From the NCBI RefSeq assembly GCF_008831285.2, contig NC_045140.1, positions 3,823,528 through 3,887,527 on the forward strand: a stretch of DNA of 64,000 bases, in the 5' to 3' direction. Source of the stretch: Nymphaea colorata (Eukaryota > Streptophyta > Magnoliopsida > Nymphaeales > Nymphaeaceae). The translations under genes and the position numbers were made by a program. This document shows, in pieces, positions 32,932-54,787 of the stretch; the first letter of the stretch is position 1, and every line of letters begins with the position of its first letter. The notes under the pieces were generated by a model. It was not told the DNA's origin and made no database searches. It worked only from the letters and a program-made list of their open reading frames with translations.

Positions 32932-32939
32932 CAGTTTAG

Positions 32940-33295
32940 CTATGTCACATGGGTGCGGGTTGCAGGTGCAAATGTGGGTGCGGATGTGTCAATTTTTTGA
33001 AAAACTTTAGGTGTGGGGACAGTGGGGTTGTATCTATGTGTGTGTATATATGTATATAAATAATTTGTTACATAGTTTTTTAACTGTTTAGTAACCTTAT
33101 TTTAACTATATTTACGTATAAAGTTTTTGTATTAGAGATAGTTTAGTTATGTACACATTTAAAATGGTCAGTTTTGGTCCCGCTCAGCTCACCGAACCGG
33201 ATGTGCTATGTCAGAGAAGCACCAGGACCAGCTCTAGCATCAATACAGGTGTAACACAGGTGTGGCAGCCATTTAGAAGCACCCATGTGACATGG
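32940..33295. mobile_element. hAT-type MITE (GTCAC family)
   Basis: A 356-bp element with near-perfect inverted ends, CTATGTCACATGGGTGC and GCACCCATGTGACATGG. Flanking direct repeats CAGTTTAG (32932-32939) and CAGTTTTG (33296-33303) match at 7 of 8 positions. Its interior (TGTATATATGTATATAAATA, TTTAGTTATGTACACATTTA, GCAGCCATTTAGAAGCACCC) matches the copy at 14299-14638. The terminal CTATGTCACA is also the end of the large hAT element at 35461-44573, which makes that element type a plausible source of transposase. Confidence 0.88.
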
Positions 33296-33657
33296 CAGTT
33301 TTGTTGATTTTCCTGATGAACCCATTCTTACCTACAATAACATTATGGCTGTGAAAAGATGCTGCTCTTTAGAAACAACTTAAAAGAACTAGGTGTTATG
33401 ATAACGTGAATATGCATTTGTTATAGGGCCATTTTCCAGTTGTGGATTTATAAAATTTTCCAATCCCTTTGCTTATTTCTTTCATGGGAATCCTCTAGAG
33501 CTATATCCATACGTGTAAAATGGCGAGTTTCATCACTTTGATGCTTTGCTGGTTCTACTAGTGAAAGCTCCGGACACCAACATTCCTGTTTATGCCACAA
33601 TATGTTTATGATCCATCAATGGCGTGATTCGATAAATGGAGATAGCATTGGTGGTGC

Positions 33658-35169
33658 ATGGCAAATCGATTTATCTACACTTTCTGTCGCCTCTCCTTCC
33701 TCCTTCACCGGCCTCCTTCTTCCTTGCCAAGGTAAAATGATTACCTGTCCTCTCTCTACTCACACATAGAGAACACACACACGTAAACGAAAAGGAAAAA
33801 CTTCTTATCTATTCGATTCTTCATGTATGAGATGCAAACCCATGTCTTTTTTTTTCTAATGGCAGGGTTGTCCTTCAACATTCACCGGTCACTCCTTTCT
33901 ACTCGTTCTATCCACGGAAAATTTCATTGGGCTTTAGTCCTATGAGCTACAGTTCGGTTAATGTGGTGCTTACTGAAGGGACACCGAAGTTTGTAGTGCA
34001 AGAAGCTGAGATACCCAAGAAGGAGAAATGGAGGACAAAGAAGAGGTTGAAAATGCAAAGAATGAGGGAAAAGAGGAAGAGAAAGTTGGCTAGCAAGACA
34101 GACCCACGTCGACTCACAATCAAAGGAAAGAAGCAGAGGTTTCCAAATGCGGAAGCAAGAATCAGATACAAAATAGAGAAGGTTAAAGTCATTACTTTTT
34201 CTCACGTCCCTTTTATACTTGAACATGTAACTGATTTTTCCATCCTTTTGGGTCTAATGTTTAATTTGTTATCTTGTTACTTTGCTGTCTTCAATTGTAC
34301 TTTTCTCATGATTTGATTCTGTTGTTCATTAAGCTGTATTTTGGTTCTAAAATTTGAATAAGTAATTAAATAACTGATGGATGTAAGCCAGTTTGATCTA
34401 GCTTTTGGTTTTGAAAAGTTCCCTTTTACACATGATTAACTGGACATCTCTGATCTGGAAATAGATTCCATAAAATATTTTATTCCAAATTAACATATGG
34501 TTAAATCTATCGGTCCCAAGAATGCATCATTTTAGATATGCCTGCTTGATGTTATAAATTCCCAATTTTTCCTATGTCAAATAGTTACATGTGTGGATAC
34601 GGGCTATGAGCCATGGCTACATGAGTATGAACAGTACAGGACAAATTGCATAAAAGGTGCAGAGATGTGCAGGTATCGGACATGAAATATCTCACCTAGT
34701 GTTATAGTGTTCCTTTTAGAAGTATATACAAATTCTAAAATATAACAAAGTTATATGACTAATAATTCAGAAGGAAAGATATATTGGTCCTGTTAAAATA
34801 TTAATCTATGTCACACAAAGCGGCTAAAGAGGCCGCGTACCCGTGTCAACTCGCCGACATGGCGATTCCGACACGGCAAAAAATAAAAATAAAAATTTAA
34901 TTTTTTTTTCATTTTATCAATTTTTTGTGATGCATCCAATTATTTCCATGAACAATCCTTTCAGATATTCAGTACTTTTGTGATAAAACACATTTTCTCA
35001 CAAGATTGTAAGAGTGAATTATTAATTTAATGTTTTTTATAATCTTATCATTTTTTAGAATATTTAATGTAGCCGTATCCGCGTATCCGAAAATTTTGAA
35101 AATTGCCGTATCTGCACCTGTATCTCCGTATCTGCACCCGTATCGCATCCACACCCGTGTGACATAGTG

Positions 35170-35207
<38 letters not shown>

Positions 35208-38200
35208 TATTAATGATATATATACATATATGTATATATATTTATATTTTTCTGTATATATCTTGTAACTTCTATATTTTTCTGTTCTTTTTTTTTTCTT
35301 TTTTGCTGCTTAAAGCAGCATTTAAGCTAGTTGTTGACTACCTTCAACGGCTAGAATTCTAGCCATTAGAACTAGTCCGATAGTCAGAGTTTTACTTCCC
35401 TATAAATAGGACTCTCTATTCTTTTGTGAATTACTTCTTGTTTGGGTTTTTATCCCATACCTAAGTCACACGGACACTGCAAAGTGACTGCGCCGCACCC
35501 GTGTCGACATGATTCAAGTGAGGGTGCGGACACGGGTGTGGCTCGGACACCTAACAGAAGTCAACAAGAGTCGGGTGAACACACCTGATCATTTTCGTCC
35601 ATTTTGGACATGCACCCGATTGGCGTTTGACTCGAGTCGGGTGCGGTCAAACTATTATTTTAAAAATTTTTAACGTTAAAAAGAGGGTTTAGGGCACGAT
35701 CGTATACCCTCTTCCTCTCCTGTTGTGCACTCTTCCCTTGCGTGGGTTTTGCTGGTTTCATTGAAGCATCTAGCGGAATGGAAAGTCACTTCCGGACCTC
35801 CGGTGATGGAGGTGGTCGAATGACGACCGGCGACAAGGTGCGATGCGTCTTTGAGTAGAAGAAAAGACTTCTCTGCCTTATTTCAATAGTATTGTCATCT
35901 GCATCTTTCTCAACTCTATTTTCCAGTGTTTGTACGTATCGTACGATACGAGCCCGTATCGTATGATACGTACTGTAGCGTACGATACAAGCCCATATCG
36001 TACAATACACCCCCTGTATCGTAAATAGGACGTGCGATACAGGGCTCGTATCGTACGATACGAGGCGATACACCCTGTATTGTACGATACAGGCTGATTT
36101 TGCAAAAACCCGTCTGAGACCTACTTATTTGACTTCTTTTTTAAAAAAAAACCCTCTGTTCTTCATTTCTCACGCTTGGATACTGCCGTCAAGGAGTGCG
36201 ATCATCCATTTTCACCATCAAAAAGTTGATTTTCACCGTGAAACCAAAGATTAAAGGGTCGATTTGTGCGTAGGTGGTTGATTTTCGTTGGAAAAAAAGG
36301 AGTTTTCTTCATAGGTGGTTGAGTTTCGTTGGAAAAAAAGGAGTTTTGTTCATTTCTTCTTCGTAAGGTATGAAATCTCTTGAGTTTACCATATATTCAT
36401 AAATTTTTACCGTAGATTGAAAGATTTTGAATGCTTTTTATAAAGTTTACCGTAGGATTTCGTTTTTTTTTTTTTTGAAAATATGGATCCTACGTGGCAA
36501 TGGTGCGAAAGGGTGAAGGAGAATGACCGGTTGAAACTCAATTGTAGTTTTTGTGAGAATACGTTTTTAGGTGGGATTAGTAGAATGAAACACCATTTTG
36601 CCGGGGTGGCTCTATGTGTTGGAAAACCAAACAAACCTTTACCTCCATTTGTGCGTCAATGTTTAGATATGCTTCATGCTTTAAATCAAAGGAAGATACA
36701 AAAAGAAATGGAAGAGACAGATGTAGGCTATAATGAGCCTTGGGAAGCTGAAGAAGAAGGAGAAGAAGCTTATGAAAATGTTGTTGATGATGATGATAGC
36801 AGTCTAAGAAGAGATCTGGAGAGCTCAAGAGGTAGAGACCGTAGAGAGAAAGGAATCATGTATGAAGGAGGTCGATCTGGCCCATCGGGAAGGAAGAGAA
36901 GAGACACACTAGATATTAGGGCCAGGCGTGGTCACCGACCACCTAGTGGTAGAGTTCCTACTGGTAGGTCTAGTGTTGGCTCTGTTAATCTAATGCTTCA
37001 AGATCTTAGTGAGATGCATGATATGAAATCAGCTGTTGACCAATGTCAAGAGGTAACAAAATTTATCTATAATCATACGTATGTATTGAGTTTGATGAGA
37101 AAGTTTACAAAATGAGTTGAATTAATACGACTTGCACAAACTAGATTTGCCACAAATGTATTGACTGTGCAGAGTGTGGTGAAACAAAGAACTCCTTTGA
37201 GGAAGATGTTCGCTAGTGAAGAAGGGGTTGCATTCCACATGCTCATAAAAGAAATGCTTCTTTAGTTGTGGATATTGTATTTAATAACGAATTTTGGGAA
37301 TCATGTGTGAAGCTATTGAAGGTTTGTGTTCCATTAGTTAAAGTTCTCAGGTTAGCTGAGAGCGAGGATAGACCTTCCATAGGGTACTTATATGAGGCTA
37401 TGGATAAAGCAAAAGAGGCAATTCGAGACAACTTGAAAGGAAAGAAAAAGTTATATATGCCCATATGGAAGATTATAGATAAAAGGTGGACTGGACAACT
37501 TCATCAACCTCTTCATGCAGCAGCTTACTATCTAAATCCTGCAATTAGATTTTCTCCTACATTTAAGAAAGACAGAAAAGTCATGCATGGTTTGTAGGAT
37601 TGTATTAACGTGTTACTGGTAGAATCTAGAAAACAAGATGTTGTGCATAATGAGTTGGATCTATATGATACTTGTTTTCGGGATATGGGACAACCTGTGG
37701 CCATTCGAGCCAGGACAACCTGTCGCCATTCGAGCCAGGACAACCATGCATCCAGGTAAATACATAGAAATGTTTAATTTACTTTGCATTTGTTACATTT
37801 GATTTTTTTAGAACTTTCACATTGATATGTTATATTTTTGTTTAGATTTGTGGTGGAATAGGTTTGGGTTTGATTATCCAAACCTAGCACGTTTTGCAAT
37901 CAAAGTCCTCAGCTAGACATGTAGTGCTAGTGGATATGAAAGGAACTGGAGTGTGTTCCAACATATCCATAGCAAGAAAAGGAATAGGCTCGAACGTAAA
38001 AGGTTGAATGACCTTGTCTTTGTTCGATATAATATGAGGTTGAAACAAAGGCAATTAAAATATAACTTAAAATAACTTAATATTTACATTTTTTGTACAA
38101 TATATTCATATGTAATTATATATTAACAAGCTTTCTCTTATTTAACGTAGAGAATTACAAAAAAATCTGCAAGAAAGCTTACATCTCAGTTTGATCCTAT

Positions 38201-41200
38201 CAGCTTGAAAAACTTTGACGATCTAGAGCCATGTTTTGAGGAAGAACCAACTACAATATTTGATGATGAAGATCTTCAATGCTTCAACCTTGAAGCTGAA
38301 GCTGTAAGAATCTTCACAAAGTACTCGTCTCTCCGTATGCAAAACAGATATGTTGAGAAGAGAGGATGAAAGAAGACGATGGAGGAAAGGGAGCAGCCGA
38401 CTTAACTTAGCCCTGCGTTCCTTAATCTTTTAATTAAAGAATAACCCTAATAGGGTACAACAGATTTGTACATAAAAAGATAAAAAATTACAAGAGAGCC
38501 ACCGCCTAGTAGCTTTAGGCGTGTGGATATAAGGAGAATGGATCGGGTCTGAACAGACCCGATCCCCATACGCTAACAGCTCCCCTCAAGTTGTGCATGA
38601 GATTTGATCATGCACAACTTGTTCTTCAAATCCCAAAAATGCTGCCCTGTGAGACCTTTGGTAAGAAGATCAGCTATCTGTTCATTGGTAGATATATAAG
38701 TAGGCAAGATCTCGGCTTCTTCAACCTTCTGTCGAATGAAATGTTGATCAATCTCTATATGTTTGGTGCGATTATGCAAAATGGGATTGAAAGCAATTTT
38801 TATCGCACTTTGATTGTCACATAGTAATGATGACCGAACAATAGGAAGATTGAGCTCTCCAAGTAAATGACGTAACCATGACGCTTCAGCCGTCCCTGCA
38901 GCCATTGCTCTATATTCTGCCTCAGTGCTAGATCGTGCAACAGCACGCTGCTTCTTACTGCTCCAACAAATGAGATTAGAATCAAGAAAGAGACAGAAAC
39001 CTGAAACTGATCGTCGGTCATCGGGATCGCCTGCCCAGTCGGCATCAGTATATGTATATATGCTATGTCCAAGAGAAACATTGGAACATTTGGTGTAGAC
39101 TAGTCCATCTCCAAGAGTAGCTTTGAGATACCGTAGGATCCTCTTAGCAGCATCCATATGTCCTTCAGTGGGTGCATGCATGAACTGAGAAATCTGATTT
39201 ACAACATATACTATGTCTGGGCGAGTAAAGGTAAGGTATTGTAACATACCAACAATGCTGCGATAGAATGTGGGATTGGAATATGCAGCAGTTCCATCAG
39301 ATGCAGTCAATTTAGTATTCAGAACACTGGGGGTAGTGATGGGTTTGCAATTAGTCATACCTGCCCTATCCAAAACATCAAGGGTATACTTGTGCTGTGT
39401 AAGAGTCAAACTATCATTTGTCCTGTCAAGTTCGACACCCAAAAAATATCGTAATTCTCCCAGATCCTTCATCTTGAACTCTTGCTTCAACATACCTTTA
39501 ACATAAGATATATGTGAAGAAGAATTCCCAGTTATAACAATATCATCAACATAGATAAGTAACCAGGTGGTAGCTTCTCCAGTGCGATAGATAAACAAAG
39601 AGTGATCGAGAGAGCTTCGGAGAAAACCAATTTGTTGTATGTGATGAGAAAAACGATCAAACCATGACCTAGAAGCTTGCTTCAACCCATATAGAGACTT
39701 GTGTAATTTGCAAACCCATTTTTGAGAATCATGAGTAGTGTAGCCGGGAGGTTGCTCCATGTATACCTCTTCCTTAAGAATTCCATGAAGAAAAGCATTT
39801 TTGACATCTAACTGATAGAGAGGCCATCCATACGAGACTGCAAGAGAAATAATGACACGGATAGTTCCCATCTTGATGACTGGACTGAATGTTTCATCAT
39901 AATCTTCCCCATATTGCTGAGTGAAACCGCGCGCCACAAGTCGTGCTTTATACCGATCAATGCTACCATCTGGTTTATATTTCAGTTTATAAACCCATTT
40001 GGATCCCACAACATTCTTATCGACTGGACGAGGGACAATCTGCCAAGTCTGACATTCATGCAAGGCTGCCATTTCCTCATTCATAGCGTCAACCCAACAT
40101 TTTTCCTTACTCGCATTGTGATAAGATGTTGGTTCCACCTTTTTGCGGACTTCTGTCATAAACAGCTGAAAATCCAAAGAAAAACTGTTATAGCTCACCC
40201 ATCTATCAATAGGATGTCGCACGCGTTGTGATTGGCGTGGAACTGTAGTAGGAACTGATCGCCTAGAATACACCAGGCCTGAGAACCGATTATGCATAGG
40301 TGGCTCACTGGGCTGAGAAGATGAAGGCATGCTGTCCAAGGAAGTAGTGCTGCTCAAGGAACTACTTACAGATGTCTCGGGCTCATTAACAACTTGCTCA
40401 TTGTGCTCAGTCAACATTGCTGCCCCTTGTCTTAAGATTTCAGCATGAAGCCAAGTATCATAAACTTCATTTTTGTCCTTGAGTGTCACAGAAGTAGCCT
40501 TGGGATCCTGTAACCTGTTCTCATCAAATACAACATGCCGTGAAATATGTACACGCCCAGTTTTAGGATTGTAACACCTATAACCCTTGTAATTTTCTGC
40601 ATACCCTATAAATCTACATAAAACAGCACGATCTTGAAATTTGTTTCGCAAGGAAACATCAACATGCACATAGCACACACATCCAAAAACGCGCAACTCC
40701 TCATAACGTGGCTGCTCTTGGTGTAAAAGAAAAAATGGTGATTTTCCATCAAGCAAAGCCAATGGCAATCGATTTATAACATGTACAGCCGTATGGAAAG
40801 CCTCGGTCCACAATGTCATAGGTAAGTCTGTTTCATGCATCATGCTAAGTGCACTTTCAACAATATGCCTATGTTTCCTTTCAGCAATTCCGTTTTGCTG
40901 AGGTGTATGCGGACATGAAATTTGTCTAGTGATCCCATTATCTAGTAAGTACTCAGTAAATTCATTAGAAATAAATTCACCACCACCATCACATTGAAAA
41001 TGCACAATATTACTGGAATATTTATTTTGAACTAAGGCATGAAATTGAGTGAATAAGCGAAAAACTTCTGATTTGTGTTTCATGAAATGGATCCAAGTAT
41101 ATCGGGAATATGAGTCAACAAAAATGACATAGTATCTACTCCCAGAAGAAGAAGGAACTGGAGCAGGCCCCCAAACATCAGAATATATGGTGTCAAAAAC

Positions 41201-44200
41201 CTTTGGAGCTCTTTTATTTATTAATTGAAAAGGAAGGGCATGGCTCTTACAGATATGACAACTCGAGCACATGCTGGACTCACTGACAGAACTCAGACTG
41301 GACTTATCTAAGAGCCCGTCTGCAACAAGACTTCGAACAAAAGATTGACTACAATGAGCTAACCGACCATGCCAAATGGATGGTTTATTATACTCTGTGA
41401 CATTGACTTCACTATGACTTGGAAAACATGAATCGGAAGGATGAGATTTTGACATCTGTGGAGCTCCTTCAAGGACATACATATCTCCTTTGCGAGTGCC
41501 CTCAGCGAATGTCTTCTTGGTTCGAGCATCCTTGACATAAACAGAAGAGGGTGTGAATTCAACAGAGGATTGAGTATCATCAATAAGCTTGGACACTGAA
41601 ATAATATTTTTCTGGACACTTGGAACAACAAGAACATTCTTTAATGGAATCGAAGAAGAGCCCATAGAAATTTGTACATTTCCAATGTGTGATATTGTGT
41701 GATGGGAACCATCTCCCGTGACAACTGAGCCTTTATCTAAATAAGGGAGAGCACTAGAGAGATTACCTGCGTCACCAGTAACATGGGCTGCTGCTCCAGA
41801 GTCCACATACCATTCTCCTTGCTCGTTTTGTTTCAAATGAAGCTTAGACAGGGCTGTCATGAGGAGTTGTTGTACGTCTGCTGAAACATTAGATCCAGAT
41901 GATGATGAAGCTGACCCTGCTGCTGCCTTGTTCTCACGTCTAATCTGATTATTTTTGTTCTGTGGGTTGTGCCAACATTCTGACTTTACATGCCCCCTCT
42001 TGTTGCAATAGAAACAAGTCGGAACCCTTCTAGATGTGGCAGATGTAGTATTCATGCCCTGTGGTGTTGGGAGAATCCCTCTTCCCATTCCTGCCTGAGG
42101 AATCCAAGTACGAGTGCGATTCCCTTGCAATGCATGTGTCCCTGTGATCAGTACATTGTGACTGTTGGAAGGAATCAAATTCTGTCGCTGAACACGACTA
42201 GCTTCGTGTTGGAATAACTTAGCCTTGAGATCTTCGAAAGATGGAAGAATAGGTAGGACTTCCAAGGCTGTGCAAAAAATATCAAAATCTGTTCCCAGTC
42301 CACTCAAGGCTTGTTGCACTTTGTCCTTGTCGCTGACGGGATGTCCAATGGCAGCAAGTTGATCACTTACACTTTTAATTTCATTCAAATATTCCAAAAC
42401 AGTACGCGTCCCACGCTTGATGTCCTGAAATTGCCTTCTTAACTGCAGAAAACGTGCTTCGGATACTTGAGAATACGTGGTGGCAAGGGTAGACCACAAC
42501 TCTAGGGCTGTTAAATCATCATCAATACCTCCTAATACTTCCTCTGACAAAGTAGAAGTAATATAGGCAACAAGAGACTGGTCGTGAGCCAGCCAAGCTT
42601 CATACTCAGGATTATTTTCAGTAATGGTTTCATATTCAAATCTGATTTCACTCATAGCCGCAGCCCCAGCAGCTTGATCTCCCACTACGGTTTTCTTCAC
42701 TTCACGGTCAATATATATAGGAGGTGCTGGAGTGGTCCCATCGATATGCCCGTAGAGTCTATGACTTTTGATAAAAGGGACTATTTGACGTTTCCAAGTC
42801 AAATAGTTACTATGATTCAGCTTTTGTGAAATAAGTTGGGAGAGAAAGCTGGAAGATAGAAGAGAGGGGGTCGGCTGATCCATAATTGATTTAGGGCAAC
42901 GACAAAAATTAGGGCAAAACGATGAGAAGATTAGGGCACAACGATTAGGGCAAATCAATTAGGGCAAATCACGCAAGATTTAGGGCAGAAACTGAAAAGA
43001 GGGATGATCACGCCAGAAAAGAAAGAATTTAGGGCAGATTAGGGCTAATCACATCAAACTGAAATCACTCACCGGAGGACGATGCAACCTGTCTCTGATA
43101 CCATGTAAGAATCTTCACAAAGTACTCGTCTCTCCGTATGCAAAACAGATATGTTGAGAAGAGAGGATGAAAGAAGACGATGGAGGAAAGGGAGCAGCCG
43201 ACTTAACTTAGCCCTGCGTTCCTTAATCTTTTAATTAAAGAATAACCCTAATAGGGTACAACAGATTTGTACATAAAAAGATAAAAAATTACAAGAGAGC
43301 CACCGCCTAGTAGCTTTAGGCGTGTGGATATAAGGAGAATGGATCGGGTCTGAACAGACCCGATCCCCATACGCTAACAGAAGCAACATAAGGATTTGTT
43401 GATGAAGGAGAGTCTGTTGGTGTTGAATATGTTGGTGAGGATCTTCAAATTTTATAAGATAAAGATGAAGAAGAAGATGAAGATGAAGATGATGAAGATT
43501 ATGAATGAGAGTCAAGAGTGCTTTCATTTTATATGTATTGGGCCTATTGTGATGTAAATTTGACAATTTGTAATACATAACATTTAGAACTTGTTTTTTG
43601 ATGTGGTATCGCATATACTTATGGATTTTATGACTTATGAATGATGAATCTATGGTTGTTGAATGTTTTATGCTTTGTAGAATGATATACTTATGAATTT
43701 TGATGTCCATGAATATATGGTTGTTGAATGTTTTATGCTTTGTAGAATGATATTCTTATGAATTTTGATGTTCATGAATGTTGAACGCGTAACTTTATAG
43801 CAATAATAAGTCTATCAGCATCTAAAACATGTTTTCTATAAAGAACTTATTATTTTTTATTTTGACTGATTTTCTTAATGAATTTTTCGATTTTTTCTGA
43901 TTTATTATTAATTATTTAAAAAAAACGATACGGTTACGATACGATACGATATTTTACGATACAACGTATCTTAAAACCCGACCGATACGGCTTACGATAT
44001 GCTTTTTAATCTGCACTTCTTCATTGCACTCTTGAGTTTGTATTTCATGTTGTTGTGCAAGCGATTCAACTAATGACTCATAGTACAAGTGCTTCTATTT
44101 TTTGTGTTTTATGCTTAAGTCAGTAAATGTTCATATTTGACCGTTAGTTTTTTCACTTTCTCAGTTTTGTGTTTTGCTGCAGAGTCTGCTATTTCTTGTT

Positions 44201-47200
44201 TAGAATTTTTTTTCCATTTCTGTGTTCTGTCCTGGTTTTGTTGTTTTTTGTTTACTTGTTTAATGTTTGTACTTTGTAAGCATGTTAATGCTTAATATGT
44301 TACATTCATATACACAATGCATTATAACTTATAAGTATGTAATATATAGTTTATCCATAAAGTGTGTAGTGTAGAGTGTATAGACTATAGACTATAGTGC
44401 ATACTCTAAATTTCTTAATTCTTATATGTATATATATAGTATATATATATCTTATAATAATAAATTAATAATAACAAATAAATGTTCTCGCTGCACCACC
44501 ACACCTAAATTTTTTGGGATGTGCCGCTCCAATACCCGCACTGGCACCAACACCCCACACCTGTGTGACATAGTCCCATACTATATTCTTTGTAATTTTC
44601 TGATTGTATTCAATAAAGTTATCAGTTCAGATTCACTGCTCCCTCTACCAAGTGTTTGAGGGATTGCTTTTAGCTTATTTTGGCATACTACCTGGGTTTC
44701 CATTACATGGTATTAGAGCCAAGGTTAGGCTCGTGAATTTGTTCATCAAGCTGGTGGCATCTTGAGTGTTCTATCTTCGTGTTGATTCAAGGCTTTGTGC
44801 CATTTGTTTGACACAATTTCTCAAACTGCATGGCGCAGTTTTCCTGAAGCAACAAGCTGCTGCAAATCGGTAGGCATATTTGTGACTGTGTGGTGGCTGT
44901 CTTCTCATCTTCTTGAAGCTGCTGCTGATCTGTGGTTTGTGCTGAATTCAAACCTATTGATTCTTCATTGTGTAGAAATATTGTGTTTGATATCATACTT
45001 GTAAGGTGTACATTTTCTTCATTATCCTTTGGTATTTATGATTGAAGACTGTTAACATATCATGTATAGGGAACCGGGTCTGGATCCAGACCCGGTCCCA
45101 TTGGCACGGGTACCGAGAGTGGCTCGGTACCCTAGACGTTTTTCCCTCTTATTTAATCCCACTTATGGTGTAATTGTTGATTAAGTGGAATAACATTTTC
45201 TCTCTCCTAGGGTTGCGGTTGTGCACCTAGGTTAGAGCTTCTCCGTGGTTTTTCACCTCTCTTTGAGGTTTTCCACGTATATTGTGTGTTCCTTTTCTTT
45301 CTCTCCATCTTGGTGTGTGTTTCTACATGGTATCAGAGCCAACGCGTGAGAGATCGTTGGTGTGATAGTCGTGTTTCCGCCGTGTTTCTTTGCCGCTGCT
45401 GTTTCCGCCGTTTTTTTTCTGCCGCTGCTGCGCCGCCGCCGTCCAGCGCTGCCAGCTGCGCCGCCATCGTCCAGCGCGGTTGTTCTCTGCTGCGTTGCCG
45501 CTGTCCAGCGCCGCCGCCGTCCCGCGCCACCGCTGCCCACCGCCGTCGCTCTCTTCCACACCGCCGCCGTACAGCGCCGCTGCCTCTTGTTTGTCGTCTC
45601 TGGTGCTGGGTATTCTTTCTCCTTGGTGATTGTGATGGCCGAGGAGATGTCCCTCAAGATCGATGATGCCCTAGACTCGGGCAGCAATACCAAGAGCGAG
45701 ATCTTGCCTGTTCAAGTCACCTCCATCCGGCTGAACAAGGATAACTATCTCTCTTGGTCGGCTGCCCTAGAAATTGGGATAACCAGTCGTGGTCGCCTGC
45801 CCTACATTACTGGGGAGAAGCCTGCACCTTCAAAAACCGATCCGCGATGGGCTACTTGGACGTTGGAAGATAGTCAGGTTAAAGTATGGATTATTAGTTC
45901 TGTTTCTGCAGATATTCAGCCTTTGATCTTGCGTAAATCGACTGCCTACGACATGTGGACTGTGCTTGCACGGATGTATGGCCGTAAGAAGAGAGTATTG
46001 CGTACGTACCAAATCAAACGTAGCATATACTCTCTTAAACAGGGTGACTTGTCTGTAGCCGCCTTCTTTGCAGCCTTAAAGACTAAGTGGGAGGAACTTG
46101 ACTACCATGTGAATGATGACTGGCACTGTGGGTTTGATCATGCCTTGTACTGGGACAAAGAATGGATGGATCGGACGTTTCTTTTCCTCGGAGGCTTACG
46201 CGATGAATTTGAATCCATTAGGAGCCAAATTCTTAATTGTGACGAGGTCCCCGGAATTGAAGAGGTGTATGCCCGTGTGGAATCTGAAGAACAGCGTCGA
46301 CAGGTGATGCATATTGACACCAGTCAGGGGAGTTCTCCTTCAGCTTTTGTTAGTCGTGTTTCTGGGATTGGACCGCGTCCTGTTCGGCGGTGTAGCCATT
46401 GCAACAAATCAGGACATTCTGTTGATTTTTGTTGGGATCTTCATCCTGAGAGGCGGCTTGTCCGGGGTCGTCCTCCTTCTAGCCGCCGGAGTCCTTCTGT
46501 GCCTGAGCCTAGTCAGAGTAGTCCGTCAAATGTTGCCAAATCTAAGCTTTCCTCCGATCAAATCAAAGAACTGCAAGCGTATATCAGCCGGCTGTCTACT
46601 ACTCAGGAGGATACTTCCACGTCTGAGGGGGCTAAGTTAGCCCAAGCTCTCGTGGCTACTAGTGACCAAGGTAATTCCTCACATGGTGATTGGATTGTTG
46701 ACAGTGGTGCTACGCATCATATGACAGGGGACCCTAAGATGTTCCAAGAATACAAATTGTCTTCGGGGCAGCAACGTGTATCTATGGCTGATGGTTCGTC
46801 TATCTCTGTGGCTGGAAAAGGGAGTTTGTCCTTGTTAAATAAATACTGTCTTCATAATGCTCTTCATGTTCCCAATATTCCTGTGAATTTGCTATCTGTC
46901 AGCAGTATTACTAAAGAACTGAACTGTAATCTGATCTTTTCTGCTGATCGGTGTTTCCTGCAGGACTTGGTGACGGGGCAGAAGATTGGGATTGGTTCGG
47001 CTATTGATGGACTCTACAGACTGCCTGTGCAGGTTGCGTCCGCTCTTATTTCAGCCACTAGTGGACAGTTGTCAAGCGTAGAAGACAGATCTACTATTAT
47101 GCGATGGCACGAGAGGCTTGGTCATCTTCCGTTTCCATTGATTAAGAAGTTGTTTCCTCGTTTGTTTCATTCTGTTTCCATGGACTCCTTCACCTGTGAA

Positions 47201-50200
47201 GTGTGTCAGTTGGCTAAACATGTTAGGGCCTCGTACCCTATTTCATTCAATAAAACCACTCGTCCATTTGCTTTGGTTCATTCTGATGTTTGGGGTCCTT
47301 CGGGAGTACCCACTTGTCGTGGTTTTCATTACTTTATGACCCTTATTGATGATTACTCCCGTTGTACGTTCGTGTATCTGTTGAAAGAACGTAGTGAACC
47401 CGTTGTACGTTCGTGTATCTGTTGAAAGAACGTAGTGAAGTTCCCGTTATTGTCAAAAACTTTGTGGCCCTTGTTGAGACTCAGTTTCAGACGTCTGTCC
47501 AAGCTTTTCGCACCGATAATGCTAGAGAGTATGTCTCTCAATCCCTAGATGATTTCTTGAAGAGCAAGGGTATTGTTCATGAAACGTCATGTAGTTACAC
47601 ACCTTCCCAAAATGGCGTGGCTGAACGGAAGAATCGCCATTTGCTTGATGTTACCCGGGCCCTTCTGTTCCATCGTCAGGTTCCCAAGCGCTACTGGGGT
47701 GATGCGCTTCTCACTAGTGCCCACCTTATCAACCGTATGCCTACCCGTGTGTTGCAGGGCCATTCCCCGTACTCTATGCTTTGGCCTACTCAGAATCCCT
47801 GGCCTCTTACTCCTCGGGTGTTCGGGTGTGTCTGTTTTGTTCATGACCATAGTCCCACCCTTAAGAAACTTGATCCTCGGTCTGTCAAGGCTGTCTTCCT
47901 GGGGTATTCCTCCACTCAGAAGGGATACAAATGTGTTGATCCTACCACCTCTAAAGTCTATGTTTCCCGGGACGTCACCTTCCATGAACATGAGGCATAC
48001 TTTCATGTGAATCCTCTTCAGGGGGAGTATCTAGGGCATAGTAGTGAAGAGTATTCCTCAAATCAGTTGATTCAGTTTACGGATTTCTTGGATTACAAGG
48101 CCAGTGACAGTGTGGCAGACACAGTCAGAGATGATAGAGACCGTCACATGGACGAGGGTCTTGTTGATAATCAGCCTACAGCCCGTGATCATTTGTTCGG
48201 CCAGGTGTACAGAAGGAAGAAGACAGATGTGATTGAAAATGTTGATGTAACCAATCCCAATCCTGTGAGCTCCCCGGATGACCCAAGTCTAATCAATGAA
48301 GAGCTTCCTATAGCCCTGCGCAAGGGCACCAGGTCCTGTACTTCTCATCCTATTCAGAGATTTGTCTCTTATGCGAAATTGAGTAAGAATTACAAATGCT
48401 TTATAACATCCTTGTCTAAGTCTGTTATTCTCAGGTGTGTGGAAGATGCTAGAGAGGATCCTAAATGGCTACAGGCCATGACAGAGGAGATGAATGCCTT
48501 GGCAAAGAATGACACTTGGGAAGTTGTGGATATTCCCAAAGGGACTCATTTAGTTGGTTCAAAGTGGGTGTTCAATGTGAAGTACAAACCAGATGGTACT
48601 GTGGAAAGGTATAAGGCTCGACTTGTTGCAAAGGGGTTCAGCCAGAAATATGGTATTGATTATCTTGAAACCTTTGCCCCTGTTGCCAAACTGAAAACTG
48701 TGAGGGTCATATTAGCTCTTGCCGTGAAAAAGGGGTGGAGCATGGATCAACTTGATGTTAAGAACGCATTCCTGAATGGCCATCTAGAAGAAGAGGTCTA
48801 TATGAGTATGCCTCCTGGATATGTTCAAAGCGGAAAATGCTGTCATCTCAAGAAAGCCTTGTATGGATTAAAGCAGTCTCCTAGAGCATGGTTTGAAAGA
48901 CTGAGGATAGTGATGAAGACAAATGGATACAAACAGGGAAATGGTGATCACACCCTATTCATTAAGCAGAGAGATGGCCTGGTGAGTCTTCTTCTTGTGT
49001 ATGTTGATGATATGATAGTCACAGGTGACGATGAAGAAGAGAAAAAAAAGATGAAGGAGAGGTTAGCTGCTGAATTTGATCTTAAAGATTTGGGTAAACT
49101 AAGGTACTTTCTGGGGATAGAGATTGCTCGGTCAGAGACAGGGCTGGTTATGAGCCAAAGGAAATACACTCTGGATCTTCTAAAGGAGACAGGCAAACTT
49201 GGGTGCAGACCCTTTCTAACTCCAATGGAGTCTGGTACAAAGATAAGCATCAAAACTGGTAACATCCTAGATGAGGAAGGAAAAGGGCGGTATCAGAGGC
49301 TGGTTGGTAAACTCATCTATCTTACTCTTACTCGCCCTGATATTACTTATGCTGTGAATGTGTTGAGTCAGTTTATGCATGCTCCTACTGATTGTCACTG
49401 GAAGAGTGCAGAAAGAGTGTTGGGGTACCTAAAGAATGACCCAGGAAAAGGGTTACTCTATACTCAGCAAGACCAACTTAATATTGAAGGATACTCTGAC
49501 GCAGATTGGGCAGGATGTACTGATACTAGAAGGTCTACCACAGGGTACTGCATCTTTCTGGGGGGTAACCTGGTTGTTTGGAGAAGTAAGAGGCAAGAAG
49601 TATGCTCTAGATCCAGTGCTGAGGCTGAATACAGGGCTGTGGCTATGGGAGTTACAGAAATGTTATGGTTAAAGATTCTCCTAACAGATATTGGTGTTGA
49701 AACAGAAGAGAAGATGAGGATGTACTGCGACAACAAGTCTGCAATTAATCTTGCGAATAATCCCGTTCTGCATGACAGAACTAAACATGTGGAGATTGAT
49801 CGCCACTTCATACGGGAACGCATAGATTCAAAGGAGTTGATCCTACCTTATATGAAGTCTGAAGATCAAATTGCAGATGTTCTAACCAAAGCCTTATGTA
49901 CATCTCAATTCGAGAAAAATGTAAGCAAGCTTGGCATGTTTGACATGTATGCCAAGCTTGAGGGGGAGTGTTAACATATCATGTATAGGTAACCGGGTCT
50001 GGATCCAGACCCGGTCCCATTGGCACGGGTACCGAGAGTGGCTCGGTACCCTAGACGTTTTTCCCTCTTATTTAATCCCACTTATGGTGTAATTGTTGAT
50101 TAAGTGGAATAACATTTTCTCTCTCCTAGGGTTGCGGTTGTGCACCTAGGTTAGAGCTTCTCCGTGGTTTTTCACCTCTCTTTGAGGTTTTCCACGTATA

Positions 50201-53200
50201 TTGTGTGTTCCTTTTCTTTCTCTCCATCTTGGTGTGTGTTTCTACAAAGACAGAATTTGGTTGTATGTCAACCATTCCCAAACTTTCTCCCTCTAACTAT
50301 AGAACATGGGCATCGTCCATGGAAGATATTTTTTGGCAAAATCTTTGGGGCTATATTAATGGTACTGAAGAAGAGCTCAACTTGTTCTTACAGAGAAAAT
50401 AGATAGAAAAGAGGTAGAATCGACTGAATGAGAAAGAAAAGGTTCATAATGAATATAATAGGGAGTGGAGAGTATGGAAGTATGGGCATCATAAAGCTAT
50501 TTGTGGGCTTCAAGCTGGAGTTGATTCTGGCCCAACAATGAGAAAAAACTATTAGGCCCCGTTTGATTGCAGGGTAGATTTTTGCATGGTAAATTTACCA
50601 TGAAAAAAAGTTCTGGAAAAAAATACAGGAGGAAAAATTTCCTTCTTCCAATCTGAGGCCATGTTTGATGGCATGGTAGTTTTTTTCAAGGTAAAAGTTA
50701 ACCGTGTTTGGTGCATGGGGTAAAATAAAGCTTAGACTTTTTAGGTGACCGTTGTGTGCCTCTAATTAACTCGTCACAAGTACTTGTGGGCCTTAAGTAC
50801 TTGTTCACACAAGCACATGGGGCCTTAAGTACTTGTTCACACAAGCACATGTGCAAACATGAGCAAGTAACCAAAGAAAACAGTTAAGACATGTACAACC
50901 AAACATGTTCATGTAAAAAGCAAAACTGGTTCATAGAAATGCACATACACATAAACAAACATGTGCATGTCAACAGGGGTGGAGCCAGGATTTTTTTCAG
51001 GGTCGACCCAAACGATCCGCAGGTCGGGCCAAGAGGAGCGACGGGTCAGGCCAAGACGAGCGACGGGTCGGGCCAAAATAAAAAAATTTGATTTTTTCAA
51101 TATAAATATTTTTTTTTCCTGCGCTCACCCGGGCCATGGCCCAGGCGGGCCCCCCTCCCTCCGCCCCTGCATGTCAACAAGCAAAATTCTGCTTCACTGC
51201 TTGTAAAGAAATAATTGTCAAAACCCCAAGTGGAGTGTAAACAATATACCTAGTGATATATTGGGTATATCTGAAGAAGTTAATACAAACTAATGAACTT
51301 AAATTTGTTTTGCTTGTGAGCATTACAGAACAGCAACCTGCTTATCCAAGCAATGCCGAAAGGCAAATGAATGTAGAGGAAAGAGAAGATCGGTAATTCA
51401 TAAGACAAAAATGAAATTAGTCAAATAGGTTATGAAAACAACACAGTATATATCAATGCAGCTAAAGCAGAACAATCAACACAGCATACAGATGAAGCAT
51501 GACTAAAAAAAAAAATGTATATACGATTCCCCCCTTCGCGTCCGCCATGGTAGCCCTGGAAGGGTCCAAATTTTTTTGCAAGGTGGGGCGGCTATAGCCG
51601 ATGCAGCGCCTCCAGCATCGGTGGAAAAGAGAGAGAACGAGAGAGATTGTGGGGAAAAAAAAGAAAGAAGAATAGGACGACAAAGAAAGGGGCTCCCTAA
51701 GCAGCCCCTCTGTGCGTCAGCCATGGCCAACGCATACCTCCAGTCGGGAGGACCTCCCATGTGTCGGCCATGGCCGACGTAACGCACGCGCGAGAGAGAG
51801 AGAGAGAGTGGCATACCTATTGCGAATGGGTGACGGCGAGGGAAGCTGCAGGTGGAAGACAGGAGAACAATGGAAGATGCGGAAGAAGGCAGACCTGCGT
51901 CGAAGAGCTTCGAAGAAGTGTCGAAGAGAAAGCCCTAAAGGGAAACCAAAAAATCTCTCGAAAAAAGTCGGACCTGGGTCCGACTTTTTTTCAAGGAAAC
52001 TTTACCCTCCTTGTTCTCATTTACCATGGAAATTTTAACATTGTTTGATAACAACGGTTGAAACCGTACAAAATTGAAAATTTTCACTCGATGCACAGTT
52101 TTTTTCATGACAATCAAACAGGGCCTTAGAGAATTCTATGGAGAGATAATGCAACTTTGGGATCAACATGTTTTGTGTGAGCCAAAATAGATGTTGAATT
52201 TATCTTTTAGTAAACAACAACTTGAAGATAAGCTCTTCAAGTTTGTGAATAGTCTCCGACCTGAGTTTGGTGTCTTTAAAACCACACTTCTTCATAGAGA
52301 GCGACCGCCCACTATCCAAGTTCTTGCGGAACTAAATATGGAGGAACTAGGCTATTCAACCAGCTTCAGAAGAATGATAGTGTATTTGCCATGTTAAAAC
52401 CTGGTCATAATGTGAAGCCCTATAAGCCTTTGCACTTCAACAAACAAAATAAGGAAGATTTTTTTAAAAAATGTGATGTCTCACTACTGCAAGCAACCAT
52501 GACATATGAGACCTAGATGCCCTAAATTGAAGAAAGAAGGGAAAAGACCTGCAGCTATAGAAAGGAAAGTAAAACTATCTATGAAGATCTTCAAGCTTCA
52601 ATGGTTGGGATGCAAGTCTCAATTACTCAACTCGTCCAAGCTCTATAACCATCTTCACAATGGCAGCAGTCTCTTCTTCCAATGAAAGTACGAATTCATG
52701 GCTTTTGGACTCAAGTGCTTCTTTTCATATGACTCCAAATGAAACATTTTTCTTGAATGCAAATATTCAAATAATTATGTTTCTACTGCTGATGGAACAA
52801 ATTTAACCCTCAAAAGCACTGGAAATTTTGAAAAATTCTTCAAAACTCTGAAATATTTAACCAGCACTAGCGTGGTGTCATGTCGACATGGGTACTTCTA
52901 CCTTATAGAAATGTCTATGTTCTCTGCATGGTTTTCCATGGAGCGTCCTCAAGAAGTGGATTTACTTGAGAAAATATCAGCAAGATGTCGGTAGTTTTAA
53001 AGCATAAAAAATATAAAGAACAAAAGAAAGAATTACAAGATAATAGGTTGTCTAATATTTTGTTTAAGGAATGAAGGAAACTATAGACTAACCTTTTGAA
53101 AAATATGAAAAACATAAATTGAAAAGGCAACATGTTTGAAAAATATAAATGAGGAATTTTGTATGGAAAATTAAAAAAAATATATTTGGAATAACTTGGG

Positions 53201-54787
53201 TTGGTATCGTGATAAAATTATGACTTTGTTTTTGGGATATCTTGAATTTCTGCATGTTTTGCTGATAATATCAGCTGGATTAAAAATGATGATAATATTT
53301 GGGAAATTTTCAAAGTATCAGAGATATTTGTGACCATGTTTGGAACATTGCTATGTTGCCAGTAGAGATTTGAAATGAGATAATAGATGTGGATGTTGTA
53401 CCGATACATGACATTCATAAATTCTATTTACAATTTTGTGGCAGTTTACGTACTGTATTGTGGTGCTTCTGGAGTAAAACTCTCGTTACTTGGATGACAG
53501 GCCAAACTCAAGGAGGCCATGCTCATTGAGAAGTTGAAAAAATATGATGTGCCTAAGCTTGAAGGACCAACAGCGGAACCTGAAAAACTAACTGGCGAGG
53601 AGTGTTTTTATTTGAAGAAAATGGCTCAAAAACAGTCCAATTATGTCCAAGTTGGTAGGAGAGGTGTGTTTGGTGGGGTCATTCTTAACATGCATTTACA
53701 TTGGAAGAAGCATGAAACCTGTAAGGTCATCTGTAAACCATGCAAACCTGGTCAGATACTTTCATATGCAGAAGAGATAGCCAGATTAAGTGGTGGTATA
53801 GCAATCCAAATTATTGGAAATGATACAATTGTATTTTATCGTGGGAAGAATTATTGCCAACCAGAGGTTATGTCACCTATCGACACACTTTCGAAGAAAA
53901 AGGTATGTAAACTTTGCTTCTTATATTCCCACTATGCGCCTGCTAATGGAAAGATGATGTTTCCAGTAGTGATTAAATTGGAAATGCCAGCAAAAGCAGG
54001 TGCATATTGAATGTGCTTGGCTTACTTGTTTTGGTATCTCTATGTGAAGCCGAAACTATTTTTTCCAATGCAAGCATAATGATTTATCTCTTGTACCTGA
54101 AGTGCTTTGGATGGGTTGAATTGATAAGCTGGGATTATACTTATTTGAGCCATGTGCAGTTGAAATAGTGGTTGTTTGGGAGCAAATAATGAGATCATTC
54201 CCAAAAATTTTGTGCCCCACAAGTATTTATTCACCCCTCGGATGGTTACTTGATCTGTGAAAGGCATTTGGTTTTCTGCCTTAATATTCATGGGGTAATC
54301 TTGATCTCAATAATGTCTTTTTCACTTTAACTTTGCTGTATCAGGTTAATGAATCTACATAATCTCATAAATTTTACTGTTATCTGGAAATCTGTACTTC
54401 AGTATCATCCAGTTCTTCCTTGTTCTTCCTGATCATTTCTGTCAAATAAGTTCACTTTGGCTATTTGATTTCTGATGATTACCCACTAATTCTTTGTCAT
54501 CAACTTTTGGCTTATAGGCATTGGAAAAATCAAAGTACGAGCAATCCCTCGAATCAGTACGACGCTTTATTGCCATCTCGGAGAAAGAGCTAGAACTTTA
54601 TTATCGACATGTTGCACTTTATGGCAATCCCTCTTGCCGTGATTCCATCTCTAGATATGTGCTCCAAAATAACTGCAATGGACGAGAGAGTCTTCAATGT
54701 TCTAACGCTAGAACAGTTAAGTCAATGGGTGACATTAGATGTGGACACTCAGACAGAGAAACCGATGCGGAAGTTGAAGATTCATAG
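33658..54787 (+). CDS. CFM9: CFM9-like CRM-domain protein, mitochondrial intron splicing; 19.3-kb TE-filled intron
   Basis: Exons 33658-33731, 33866-34181, 53501-53902 and 54518-54787 join at GT/AG sites in phase (split codon AG|G at the first junction, phase 0 at the other two) and predict 353 aa. Residues 1-24 are Arg/Ser/hydrophobic with no acidic residue, as in mitochondrial presequences. Exon 2 carries a very basic stretch (KKEKWRTKKRLKMQRMREKR). Exon 3 holds the CRM RNA-binding domain, with GRRGVFGGVILNMHLHWKKH, a variant of the family's loop and helix signature. Exon 4 gives KYEQSLESVRRFI and YYRHVALYGNP, typical of the single-CRM CFM9 group. CFM9 acts in splicing of mitochondrial group II introns (family knowledge). 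The start at 33658 is chosen because it opens the presequence and fits the splice phase. The C-terminus after YYRHVALYGNP is divergent, so the end could be eroded. Confidence 0.82.
34806..35167. mobile_element. hAT-type MITE (GTCACAC ends), in the CFM9-like intron
   Basis: A 362-bp non-coding element beginning CTATGTCACAC and ending GTGTGACATAG, a perfect 11-bp inverted repeat identical to the right end of the hAT at 35461-44573. Inner sequence near the ends is rich in GTATCCGCGTATCCG and GTATCTGCACCCGTATC words. Flanks ATATTAAT and TGTATAAT match only in the last four bases, so the target duplication has decayed or been altered by the adjoining (TA)n tract. Confidence 0.7.
35401..35410 (+). 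promoter_or_regulatory. TATA box of the old Copia LTR
   Basis: TATAAATAGG lies in the LTR remnant 60 bp before the hAT insertion point. It has a good match to plant TATA boxes, and position and composition fit an LTR U3/R boundary. The promoter is now separated from its element by 9 kb of hAT sequence. Confidence 0.45.
35936..36092. repeat. Cluster of CGTATCG/CGATACG words, left side of hAT
   Basis: At least ten copies of (C/T)GTATCGTA or its complement, in both orientations and partly overlapping, within about 160 bp, separated by GAGCCC, AAGCCC and ACACCC(C)TG spacers. The cluster lies about 475-630 bp from the left end of the hAT element. Its mirror cluster is at 43926-43999. Possible transposase-binding array or local hairpin-forming DNA; function is inference. 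Confidence 0.8.
37689..37745. repeat. 25-bp tandem duplication in the hAT transposase pseudogene
   Basis: GACAACCTGT(G/C)GCCATTCGAG followed by CCAG repeats with a 25-bp period from 37689, 37714 and 37739 (third copy partial). 25 is not a multiple of three, so it shifts the frame. Confidence 0.85.
38303..38578 (-). repeat. Copia 1 3' LTR
   Basis: 276 bp, identical on reading to 43104-43379. Contains a palindrome GATCGGGTCTG-AA-CAGACCCGATC at 38541-38564, close to the element-strand start of the LTR. Confidence 0.95.
38573..42958 (-). CDS. Copia 1 Gag-Pol polyprotein, intact
   Basis: A single open frame of 1461 codons; a better start may be the internal Met at 42883 (residue 26, MDQPTPSLLSSSFLSQ), since residues 1-25 lie in the leader and have no Gag features. 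Order: Gag with a UBN2/retrotran_gag-type N-terminus (NHSNYLTWKRQI), zinc knuckle CFYCNKRGHVKSEC, protease with DSGAAAHVTGD, GAG-pre-integrase, integrase (SDVWGP, CDGGGEF, QQNGIAERKHRH), reverse transcriptase (QLDVKNAFLHG, YVDDIVITG) and RNase H (DADWAGDPDDRRS, STEAEYRAM), ending near the polypurine tract. Catalytic residues that I can check are present. The product would self-process and reverse transcribe its RNA in cytoplasmic particles (family knowledge). The stop lies just inside the 3' LTR edge. Confidence 0.95.
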   Translation of the reverse strand: MICPNRCALIFSSFCPNFCRCPKSIMDQPTPSLLSSSFLSQLISQKLNHSNYLTWKRQIVPFIKSHRLYGHIDGTTPAPPIYIDREVKKTVVGDQAAGAAAMSEIRFEYETITENNPEYEAWLAHDQSLVAYITSTLSEEVLGGIDDDLTALELWSTLATTYSQVSEARFLQLRRQFQDIKRGTRTVLEYLNEIKSVSDQLAAIGHPVSDKDKVQQALSGLGTDFDIFCTALEVLPILPSFEDLKAKLFQHEASRVQRQNLIPSNSHNVLITGTHALQGNRTRTWIPQAGMGRGILPTPQGMNTTSATSRRVPTCFYCNKRGHVKSECWHNPQNKNNQIRRENKAAAGSASSSSGSNVSADVQQLLMTALSKLHLKQNEQGEWYVDSGAAAHVTGDAGNLSSALPYLDKGSVVTGDGSHHTISHIGNVQISMGSSSIPLKNVLVVPSVQKNIISVSKLIDDTQSSVEFTPSSVYVKDARTKKTFAEGTRKGDMYVLEGAPQMSKSHPSDSCFPSHSEVNVTEYNKPSIWHGRLAHCSQSFVRSLVADGLLDKSSLSSVSESSMCSSCHICKSHALPFQLINKRAPKVFDTIYSDVWGPAPVPSSSGSRYYVIFVDSYSRYTWIHFMKHKSEVFRLFTQFHALVQNKYSSNIVHFQCDGGGEFISNEFTEYLLDNGITRQISCPHTPQQNGIAERKHRHIVESALSMMHETDLPMTLWTEAFHTAVHVINRLPLALLDGKSPFFLLHQEQPRYEELRVFGCVCYVHVDVSLRNKFQDRAVLCRFIGYAENYKGYRCYNPKTGRVHISRHVVFDENRLQDPKATSVTLKDKNEVYDTWLHAEILRQGAAMLTEHNEQVVNEPETSVSSSLSSTTSLDSMPSSSQPSEPPMHNRFSGLVYSRRSVPTTVPRQSQRVRHPIDRWVSYNSFSLDFQLFMTEVRKKVEPTSYHNASKEKCWVDAMNEEMAALHECQTWQIVPRPVDKNVVGSKWVYKLKYKPDGSIDRYKARLVARGFTQQYGEDYDETFSPVIKMGTIRVIISLAVSYGWPLYQLDVKNAFLHGILKEEVYMEQPPGYTTHDSQKWVCKLHKSLYGLKQASRSWFDRFSHHIQQIGFLRSSLDHSLFIYRTGEATTWLLIYVDDIVITGNSSSHISYVKGMLKQEFKMKDLGELRYFLGVELDRTNDSLTLTQHKYTLDVLDRAGMTNCKPITTPSVLNTKLTASDGTAAYSNPTFYRSIVGMLQYLTFTRPDIVYVVNQISQFMHAPTEGHMDAAKRILRYLKATLGDGLVYTKCSNVSLGHSIYTYTDADWAGDPDDRRSVSGFCLFLDSNLICWSSKKQRAVARSSTEAEYRAMAAGTAEASWLRHLLGELNLPIVRSSLLCDNQSAIKIAFNPILHNRTKHIEIDQHFIRQKVEEAEILPTYISTNEQIADLLTKGLTGQHFWDLKNKLCMIKSHAQLEGSC
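43086..43103 (-). other. Primer-binding site of Copia 1
   Basis: On the minus strand, TGGTATCAGAGACAGG directly follows the 5' LTR end CTTACA. The first 11 bases match the standard initiator-Met PBS. Confidence 0.9.
43104..43379 (-). repeat. Copia 1 5' LTR
   Basis: 276 bp; carries the same palindrome at 43342-43365. It is the upstream LTR on the minus strand and would drive transcription antisense to the CFM9-like gene. Confidence 0.95.
43926..43999. repeat. Cluster of CGATACG words, right side of hAT
   Basis: ACGATACGGTTACGATACGATACGATA and further copies (written here in part: CGATACG at least five times) in about 70 bp, about 575-650 bp from the right end of the hAT element, mirroring the left cluster at 35936-36092. 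Confidence 0.75.
45050..45327 (+). repeat. Copia 2 5' LTR
   Basis: 278 bp. Contains a perfect 22-bp palindrome at 45074-45095 (CCGGGTCTGGA and its complement) 24 bp from the LTR start. Confidence 0.95.
45328..45340 (+). other. Primer-binding site of Copia 2
   Basis: TGGTATCAGAGCC immediately follows the LTR, complementary to the 3' end of plant initiator-Met tRNA. Confidence 0.93.
45635..49974 (+). pseudogene. Copia 2 Gag-Pol polyprotein, frameshifted in integrase
   Basis: The likely start is ATG at 45635 (MAEEMSLKIDDALDS); the frame is open further upstream to 45362 but that part is Ala/Arg/Pro-rich read-through of a CG-rich leader. Order: Gag (DNYLSWSAALE), zinc knuckle CSHCNKSGHSVDFC, protease DSGATHHMTGD, GAG-pre-integrase (RWHERLGHLPF), and integrase beginning SDVWGPSGVP. 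A 41-bp tandem duplication (47358-47398, 47399-47439) moves the remainder to another frame, ending the first frame at 47425. The second part (47440-49974) has the rest of integrase (QNGVAERKNRH), reverse transcriptase (QLDVKNAFLNG, YVDDMIVTG) and RNase H (SDADWAGCTDTRRS, SAEAEYRAVAM). No other break was seen. 41 is not a multiple of three, so the integrase is not made as a single intact domain. Confidence 0.92.
47358..47439 (+). repeat. 41-bp direct tandem duplication inside the Copia 2 integrase
   Basis: CCCGTTGTACGTTCGTGTAT starts at 47358 and again at 47399. The two 41-bp units are identical on reading. This is the only lesion found in the polyprotein. Confidence 0.95.
49969..50246 (+). 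repeat. Copia 2 3' LTR
   Basis: 278 bp, one base different from the 5' LTR; the palindrome lies at 49993-50014. Confidence 0.95.
50974..51169. mobile_element. hAT-type MITE (CAGGGGYGGA ends) nested in the Harbinger-like element
   Basis: A 196-bp element with ends CAGGGGTGGAGCCAGG and CCTCCCTCCGCCCCTG. Perfect 8-bp direct repeats CATGTCAA flank it at 50966-50973 and 51170-51177. Internally GACGGGTC(A/G)GGCCAA is repeated. This is the terminal signature of a common plant hAT MITE group. Confidence 0.92.
51961..51990. repeat. Perfect hairpin palindrome
   Basis: AAAAAAGTCGGACC, a TG loop, then GGTCCGACTTTTTT: 14-bp arms with no mismatch, inside the Harbinger-like element. As RNA it would be a stable stem followed by U residues. 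Confidence 0.9.
52861..53500. other. Right end of the CFM9-like intron
   Basis: AT-rich sequence between the end of recognisable old Copia sequence and the acceptor TTGGATGACAG at 53500. No coding or element boundary seen; probably original intron plus unrecognised element remains. Confidence 0.45.

Follow-up and report, generated by a model that had tools for sequence, protein, structure and literature searches.

A 19.3-kb intron filled with nested transposable elements in a candidate CFM9-like gene of Nymphaea colorata

A CRM-domain gene and its second intron

The window analysed here is the whole stretch of 64,000 nucleotides at C3:3823528-3887527 of the Nymphaea colorata genome (contig NC_045140.1, here C3). 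It contains a four-exon gene model whose product carries a complete CRM domain and whose second intron is by far its largest feature.

33658..33731, forward strand: first exon of the CRM-domain (CFM9-like) gene, starting at the ATG; one of three open ATG/GT/AG combinations
33866..34181, forward strand: exon 2; GT-AG borders, phase 0 at its end
34182..53500, forward strand: intron 2, 19,319 bp; homologous intron at the same site and in the same phase in three paralogues
53501..53902, forward strand: exon 3, with the whole CRM domain inside (PF01985, E = 3.1e-19, 69.5 bits)
54518..54787, forward strand: exon 4, to the stop codon; read from sequence

Together the exons make up 1,062 bp and encode 353 aa, with the sole stop codon at the end, GT-AG borders at 3 of 3 introns, and neither a frameshift nor an internal stop. 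Exon 1 appears to be the least certain part of the model; the combination listed was picked because its 3′ splice site comes after a pyrimidine run. The product covers positions 1-84 of the 84 in PF01985, scoring well above the cut-off of 27 bits, and a search of solved structures with it gave three weak matches, the best to bacterial YhbY (E = 0.073). The regions flanking the CRM domain probably resemble those of Arabidopsis CFM9; the CFM9 name and a mitochondrial function, which we take from the CRM domain and from this likeness, are a candidate assignment only. The product is predicted to aid mitochondrial RNA processing. Arabidopsis CFM9 (At3g27550) is described as a mitochondrial CRM protein in the part of PMC7352785 drawn on here, and its likeness to the Nymphaea gene is at the domain level, the CRM domain being what the two have in common.

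Two other features were observed elsewhere in the window. Positions 24920-27442 hold an 841-aa stop-free open frame with two kinase-domain stretches. An inverted repeat is formed by positions 56687-58010 and 62669-64000 (93.6% identical over 1,350 columns); it may extend beyond the window end, and it contains a gene piece with a prenyltransferase alpha-subunit repeat (PF01239) that scores just under the Pfam cut-off.

The large intron opens at AAG/GTTAAAG (34181/34182) and closes at GATGACAG/GCC (53500/53501), in phase 0 on both sides. A first-pass annotation of this DNA had proposed that exon 2 ends in phase 0 at 34181 and that exon 3 starts in phase 0 at 53501, and the GT/AG junction bears this out. 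Its reading of one gene with one intron and a preserved phase is upheld as well, chiefly by introns at the same site and in the same phase in three paralogues.

The paralogues come from a protein search of the genome (407.8 Mb, 783 contigs), which scored all 21 candidates and yielded 16 matches: four from the gene itself, three from close paralogues (49-68% identical), six from distant CRM genes (36-49%), and three from duplicate pieces, which belong to two partial duplicates on C6. The closest paralogue, D, lies at C3:26.636 Mb and is 68% identical, followed by E (C14:10.07 Mb, 52%) and F (C3:3.493 Mb, 49%). The first-pass annotation had raised the prospect of a second complete copy of the gene elsewhere; this genome-wide search, with all its candidates scored, found none, the closest paralogue being D.

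At the shared codon boundary, the intron measures 240 bp in D, 3,663 bp in E, 6,556 bp in F and 19,319 bp in the gene studied here. The length in D reads clearly from the sequence; those in E and F are likely values, set by weak exon 2 matches (tblastn E-values of 3e-6 and 5e-4 on fetched stretches). The residues around the junction are KLEK/AKRK in D, KLKK/AQRK in E, NLRR/AKKK in F and KIEK/AKLK in the present gene, with a basic residue before the junction and an Ala codon after it. All four introns are GT-AG and phase 0, and their 3′ borders are identical in placement. Because this position is common to the paralogues, which is our strongest argument, we take 34182-53500 to be a real intron and not a gap between two genes. 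The site and phase that it shares with D, E and F therefore point to an ancestral intron, enlarged by insertions.

Anatomy of the nest

Almost the entire intron consists of transposons inserted in one another, arranged as follows.

34182..34805, forward strand: left remainder of the host intron; no element recognised in the sequence
34806..35167, no strand assigned: MITE with ends CTATGTCACA...TGTGACATAG; terminal inverted repeat
35168..35460, forward strand: old Copia, left LTR part with CTATAAATA box; read from sequence, left border approximate
35461..44573, forward strand: hAT element, with Copia1 within; exact 8-bp target duplication TCCCATAC, terminal inverted repeats CTAAGTCACAC/CTATGTCACAC, Dimer_Tnp_hAT domain
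38303..43379, reverse strand: Copia1, young; LTRs, target duplication, open frame 38573-42958, domains
44574..45049, forward strand: old Copia, right LTR part, primer-binding-like site and leader; part also in duplicate B; the hAT target duplication makes up its first 8 bases
45050..50246, forward strand: Copia2, young, coding region broken; LTRs, target duplication, domains
50247..50554, forward strand: old Copia, left part of gag; Retrotran_gag_3 at E = 7.6e-4, below the Pfam cut-off
50555..52125, no strand assigned: PIF/Harbinger-type element; terminal inverted repeats matching at 14 of 15 bases, target duplication TTA on both sides
52126..52860, forward strand: old Copia, gag/protease remnant; nearest relative 77% identical
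52861..53500, forward strand: remaining right-hand part of the intron, including a low-copy dispersed repeat (~52948-53345); repeat search

Expressed as lengths, the 19,319 bp comprise a left remainder of 624 bp, a MITE of 362 bp, about 1.8 kb of old Copia in four pieces, about 4.0 kb of hAT in two pieces, Copia1 (5,077 bp), Copia2 (5,197 bp), the Harbinger-type element (1,571 bp) and a right remainder of 640 bp. The layering in the first-pass list of elements is confirmed, and the arrangement is that of a nest, not a row: the old Copia holds the hAT, which in turn holds Copia1, and it also holds Copia2 and the Harbinger-type element. Copia1 runs antisense to the gene; Copia2 and the old Copia run in its sense direction. 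A second MITE had been proposed on the right-hand side; the sequence there holds only the dispersed repeat, with 11 matches in the genome (10 of 10 candidates scored) and with approximate ends.

The hAT assignment is supported by a Dimer_Tnp_hAT match on a fragment of the element (PF05699, E = 1.9e-8, over the cut-off); a zf-BED match (E = 0.031) falls under it. By chance, 5 bp agree between two random places in the intron with a frequency of 0.0013, and 8 bp with a frequency of 0.00003. The 5-bp duplications of the nest were read at LTR borders. For the 8-bp duplication of the hAT, 625 border pairs were scanned, and taken alone it would appear by chance in about 2% of scans of this kind; we accepted it because it adjoins matching terminal repeats. 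An earlier candidate reading took 35461-44573 for a Mutator-like element whose 9-bp duplication matched at 8 of 9 bases; it was dropped after the exact 8-bp duplication and the hAT domain were found. Dense palindromic repeats of the GTACGATACG type occur near both hAT ends (window 35920-36080 and 43920-44000). A search for an inner element ending at these repeats (~35920, ~44000) gave best pairs with at least 4 mismatches over terminal repeat and duplication, and the repeats may be either subterminal repeats or an inner element.

The borders of the intronic MITE show no clear target duplication. Its ends are hAT-like, as are those of a MITE at 32940-33295. The latter is one of two copies of a MITE-like repeat in the window (14354-14634 and 32940-33295, 79% identical), and it is this second copy that has CTATGTCACA-type ends.

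Copia1 lies inside the hAT coding remnant, between two copies of its 5-bp target duplication GAAGC (38298-38302 and 43380-43384). Its LTRs end in TG...CA and are identical at 276 of 276 bases; searched in three separate pieces, its interior matched gag_2, rve and RVT_2, with integrase before reverse transcriptase. Copia2 sits in the leader of the old Copia, flanked by AAGAC, and has TG...CA LTRs identical at 277 of 278 bases; the two pieces searched matched gag_2 and RVT_2. The first-pass view of both as young copies stands on these LTR pairs. Copia2 is not an intact copy, since a perfect 41-bp tandem duplication (47358-47439) breaks its coding region. Each young element has a TGGTATCAGAG primer-binding site, and a purine run before the 3′ LTR. 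When the best 40 of 386 candidate places in the genome were scored with the Copia1 LTR, 40 full-length matches of 98-100% and 20 short 26-base matches were obtained; the best 40 of 1,084 candidate places scored with the Copia2 LTR likewise gave full-length matches of 98-100%. Both elements belong to families with many near-identical copies, and the unscored candidates may be more diverged.

Decay has gone much further in the old Copia. Its best match other than the locus itself, among the 42 listed (40 of 53 candidates scored), is the relative at 77% identity, from which it differs by 16 indels, 11 of them frameshifting, over 748 aligned columns. A 57-aa gag piece of the remnant had no Pfam match. 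The Harbinger-type element, which sits in the gag of the old Copia, is probably non-autonomous.

Order and age of the insertions

The two partial duplicates on C6 bear on the order of events. Duplicate B (C6:5.657 Mb; C6:5657524-5658197) corresponds to window 31856-33964, plus a short stretch at 31599-31657, fused to 44742-45049 and 50247-50302. It comprises the upstream region, exon 1, intron 1 and the start of exon 2, followed by part of the old Copia; Copia2 is missing from that part, and the Copia2 target occurs there once, as an empty site with a 2-base indel nearby. Because B has the old Copia without Copia2, the old Copia must have lain beside the gene before this duplication, and Copia2 arrived later. 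The duplicate is without 33965-44741 and is hence silent on the arrival time of the hAT and Copia1. It differs at 89 of 2070 bases across its gene part and at 8 of 357 across the stretch from the old Copia. Duplicate C (C6:13.455 Mb; C6:13455083-13455596) holds pieces of window 30860-33763 and 33795-33834, and ends within intron 1, before exon 2. As a side observation, the upstream region and exon 1 (window 30860-33964) are twice duplicated on C6 as truncated copies at ~90-92% identity (blastn).

The young insertions are judged recent because the LTRs differ at 0 of 276 positions in Copia1 and 1 of 278 in Copia2. With assumed substitution rates of 7e-9 and 1.3e-8, rough ages are less than ~0.8 My for Copia1, ~0.1-0.3 My with an upper bound of 1.2 for Copia2, and ~1-3 My for duplicate B. 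By its decay, the old Copia is judged to be far older than either young element.

Combining these layers, we propose that the intron would originally have been shorter, and that a Copia element, now decayed, would have been the first to insert. The hAT and the Harbinger-type element would have entered the old Copia next, and last of all Copia1 would have entered the hAT and Copia2 the old Copia. Because the insertions fell within the intron, they would have left the splice sites and the reading frame untouched.

Read-through, alternatives and significance

The anatomy of the nest, the nesting order, the target duplications, the shared intron position, the open coding model and a search that found no second complete copy are matters of direct observation. 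The account that we consider probable is that 34182-53500 is a normal spliceosomal intron that predates the divergence of the four paralogues and grew to 19.3 kb by serial insertion in a gene that is still read through and spliced. RNA polymerase II would pass through the nest, and the spliceosome would join 34181 to 53501, giving the 353-aa CRM protein.

The decay of the old Copia offers a yardstick for selection on the gene. If this copy accounts for half of its 11 frameshifting indels, an unconstrained sequence of 1,062 bp should carry about 8; the coding model has none (P ~4e-4). The open coding model therefore suggests that the gene was under selection while the old Copia sat in the intron, for much of that time, provided that the element was undamaged at insertion. 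A combined lesion estimate of 13.7 was set aside, as its stops had been counted by eye over a longer stretch and divided by 737 bp. On survival since the two young insertions the coding region is silent, these being too recent. We infer transcription through the nest, splicing and gene function from sequence features.

It is unlikely, in our judgement, that the locus is recently dead or dying, with premature polyadenylation brought about by the sense-strand Copia2 and by the nest's length, no full-length mRNA, and a frame that has merely not yet decayed. The recency of both Copia insertions fits such a course, as does the donor site of intron 2: in predicted pairing, GTTAAAG forms the weakest U1 duplex among six compared (-5.2 kcal/mol, against -5.3 in paralogue F and -6.8 to -8.4 in the other four), and U1 pairing is stronger at 109 of the 1,169 other GT sites that the intron contains. 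Changes at conserved CRM residues point the same way. In columns where the other three paralogues agree, the gene here is the odd one out 8 times, compared with 3 in D (plus one gap; cut translation), 9 in E and 19 in F, and the 8 altered residues, shared by D, E and F, include the Pro of the NYVPVG motif. Relative-rate tests against D gave no significant difference (outgroup E, 15:8, chi2 2.1; outgroup F, 11:9, chi2 0.2). Against a dying locus stand the intact coding model and splice dinucleotides and the failure of the genome search to find any other complete copy.

Long introns in other plants weigh on both sides of this question. The portion of the grapevine study drawn on here reports 2,697 introns above 3 kb, with more than 80% repeats and a class above 20 kb; the genes that contain them have fewer ESTs (singletons 46.0% versus 32.8% overall), which would suit a dying locus, yet EST-supported introns above 20 kb also occur (PMC3058033). 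The corresponding part of the Chloranthus report argues against it: of 2,184 genes compared, 876 are longer than 20 kb, long introns seem to stem chiefly from LTR elements, and long-intron genes, up to ~40 kb, are more highly expressed (PMC8626473). So does that of the Sapria report, in which 23 genes have introns above 100 kb and, among the 1,000 flower genes with the highest expression, 640 have introns of at least 1 kb (PMC10246380). The likeness to the present locus lies in many-kb, transposon-rich introns, dominated by repeats in grapevine and by LTR elements in Chloranthus; transcript support belongs only to those plants. Unlike those surveys, as far as the portions cited extend, the locus resolves layers, target duplications and one empty site element by element, and allows a comparison of four paralogues.

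We regard as very unlikely a split gene, in which exons 1 and 2 would end in the intron and exons 3 and 4 would be expressed from a transposon or intron promoter to give a CRM protein without its N-terminal part. The entire CRM domain does lie in exon 3, with an in-frame ATG as its seventh codon, and sense-strand LTRs lie upstream; but the phase-0 junction is preserved, and D, E and F have the same build across the intron. That the nest was misjoined into the gene during assembly, as two near-identical LTR pairs from high-copy families might suggest, is barely credible given a target duplication on each of Copia1, Copia2, the hAT and the Harbinger-type element, an interrupted element that resumes beyond each insertion, and a duplicate B that runs on across the Copia2 site.

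If the gene is indeed read through, the closest precedent for its control is in Arabidopsis, where IBM2, EDM2 and AIPP1 keep early poly(A) sites in genic heterochromatic transposons from being used (PMC10241880, PMC11265718). RPP7, IBM1 and PPD7 resemble the present locus in having an intronic transposon with a potential early poly(A) site; in the parts of these sources drawn on here, chromatin state, early poly(A) use and IBM2/EDM2 dependence are reported for the Arabidopsis genes, and the Nymphaea locus is known from its sequence alone. For most genes with CHG-methylated long introns, lower methylation leaves full-length transcripts unaltered, according to the part of PMC11265718 cited. A BAH-domain family search of the genome gave 15 matches, 14 over the cut-off, a domain-level result that does not single out IBM2. 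The first-pass interpretation thus holds for one gene, one intron, a kept phase, a layered nest and two young Copias, and is overstated in its claim that IBM2/EDM2-type factors are a likely requirement, which is too strong. We think it improbable to a high degree that the nest acts as a condition-dependent switch, the chromatin state of Copia2 setting whether full-length CRM protein or an early-terminated mRNA is made. If it did, a mitochondrial splicing factor would be under the control of an intronic transposon in a plant that may belong to an early-branching flowering lineage.

A limited literature search found no paper uniting CFM9, Nymphaea, a transposable element and an intron. As a single locus, the intron is instructive and unsurprising, a clear example of the already known growth of introns by transposons; its value lies in the four-way comparison and the two young insertions. 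One ancestral intron at 240, 3,663, 6,556 and 19,319 bp provides a matched set for relating intron length and transposon load to transcript completion. The Copia1 and Copia2 insertions may be polymorphic between accessions, and if these two youngest insertions do differ, their effect would be directly measurable.
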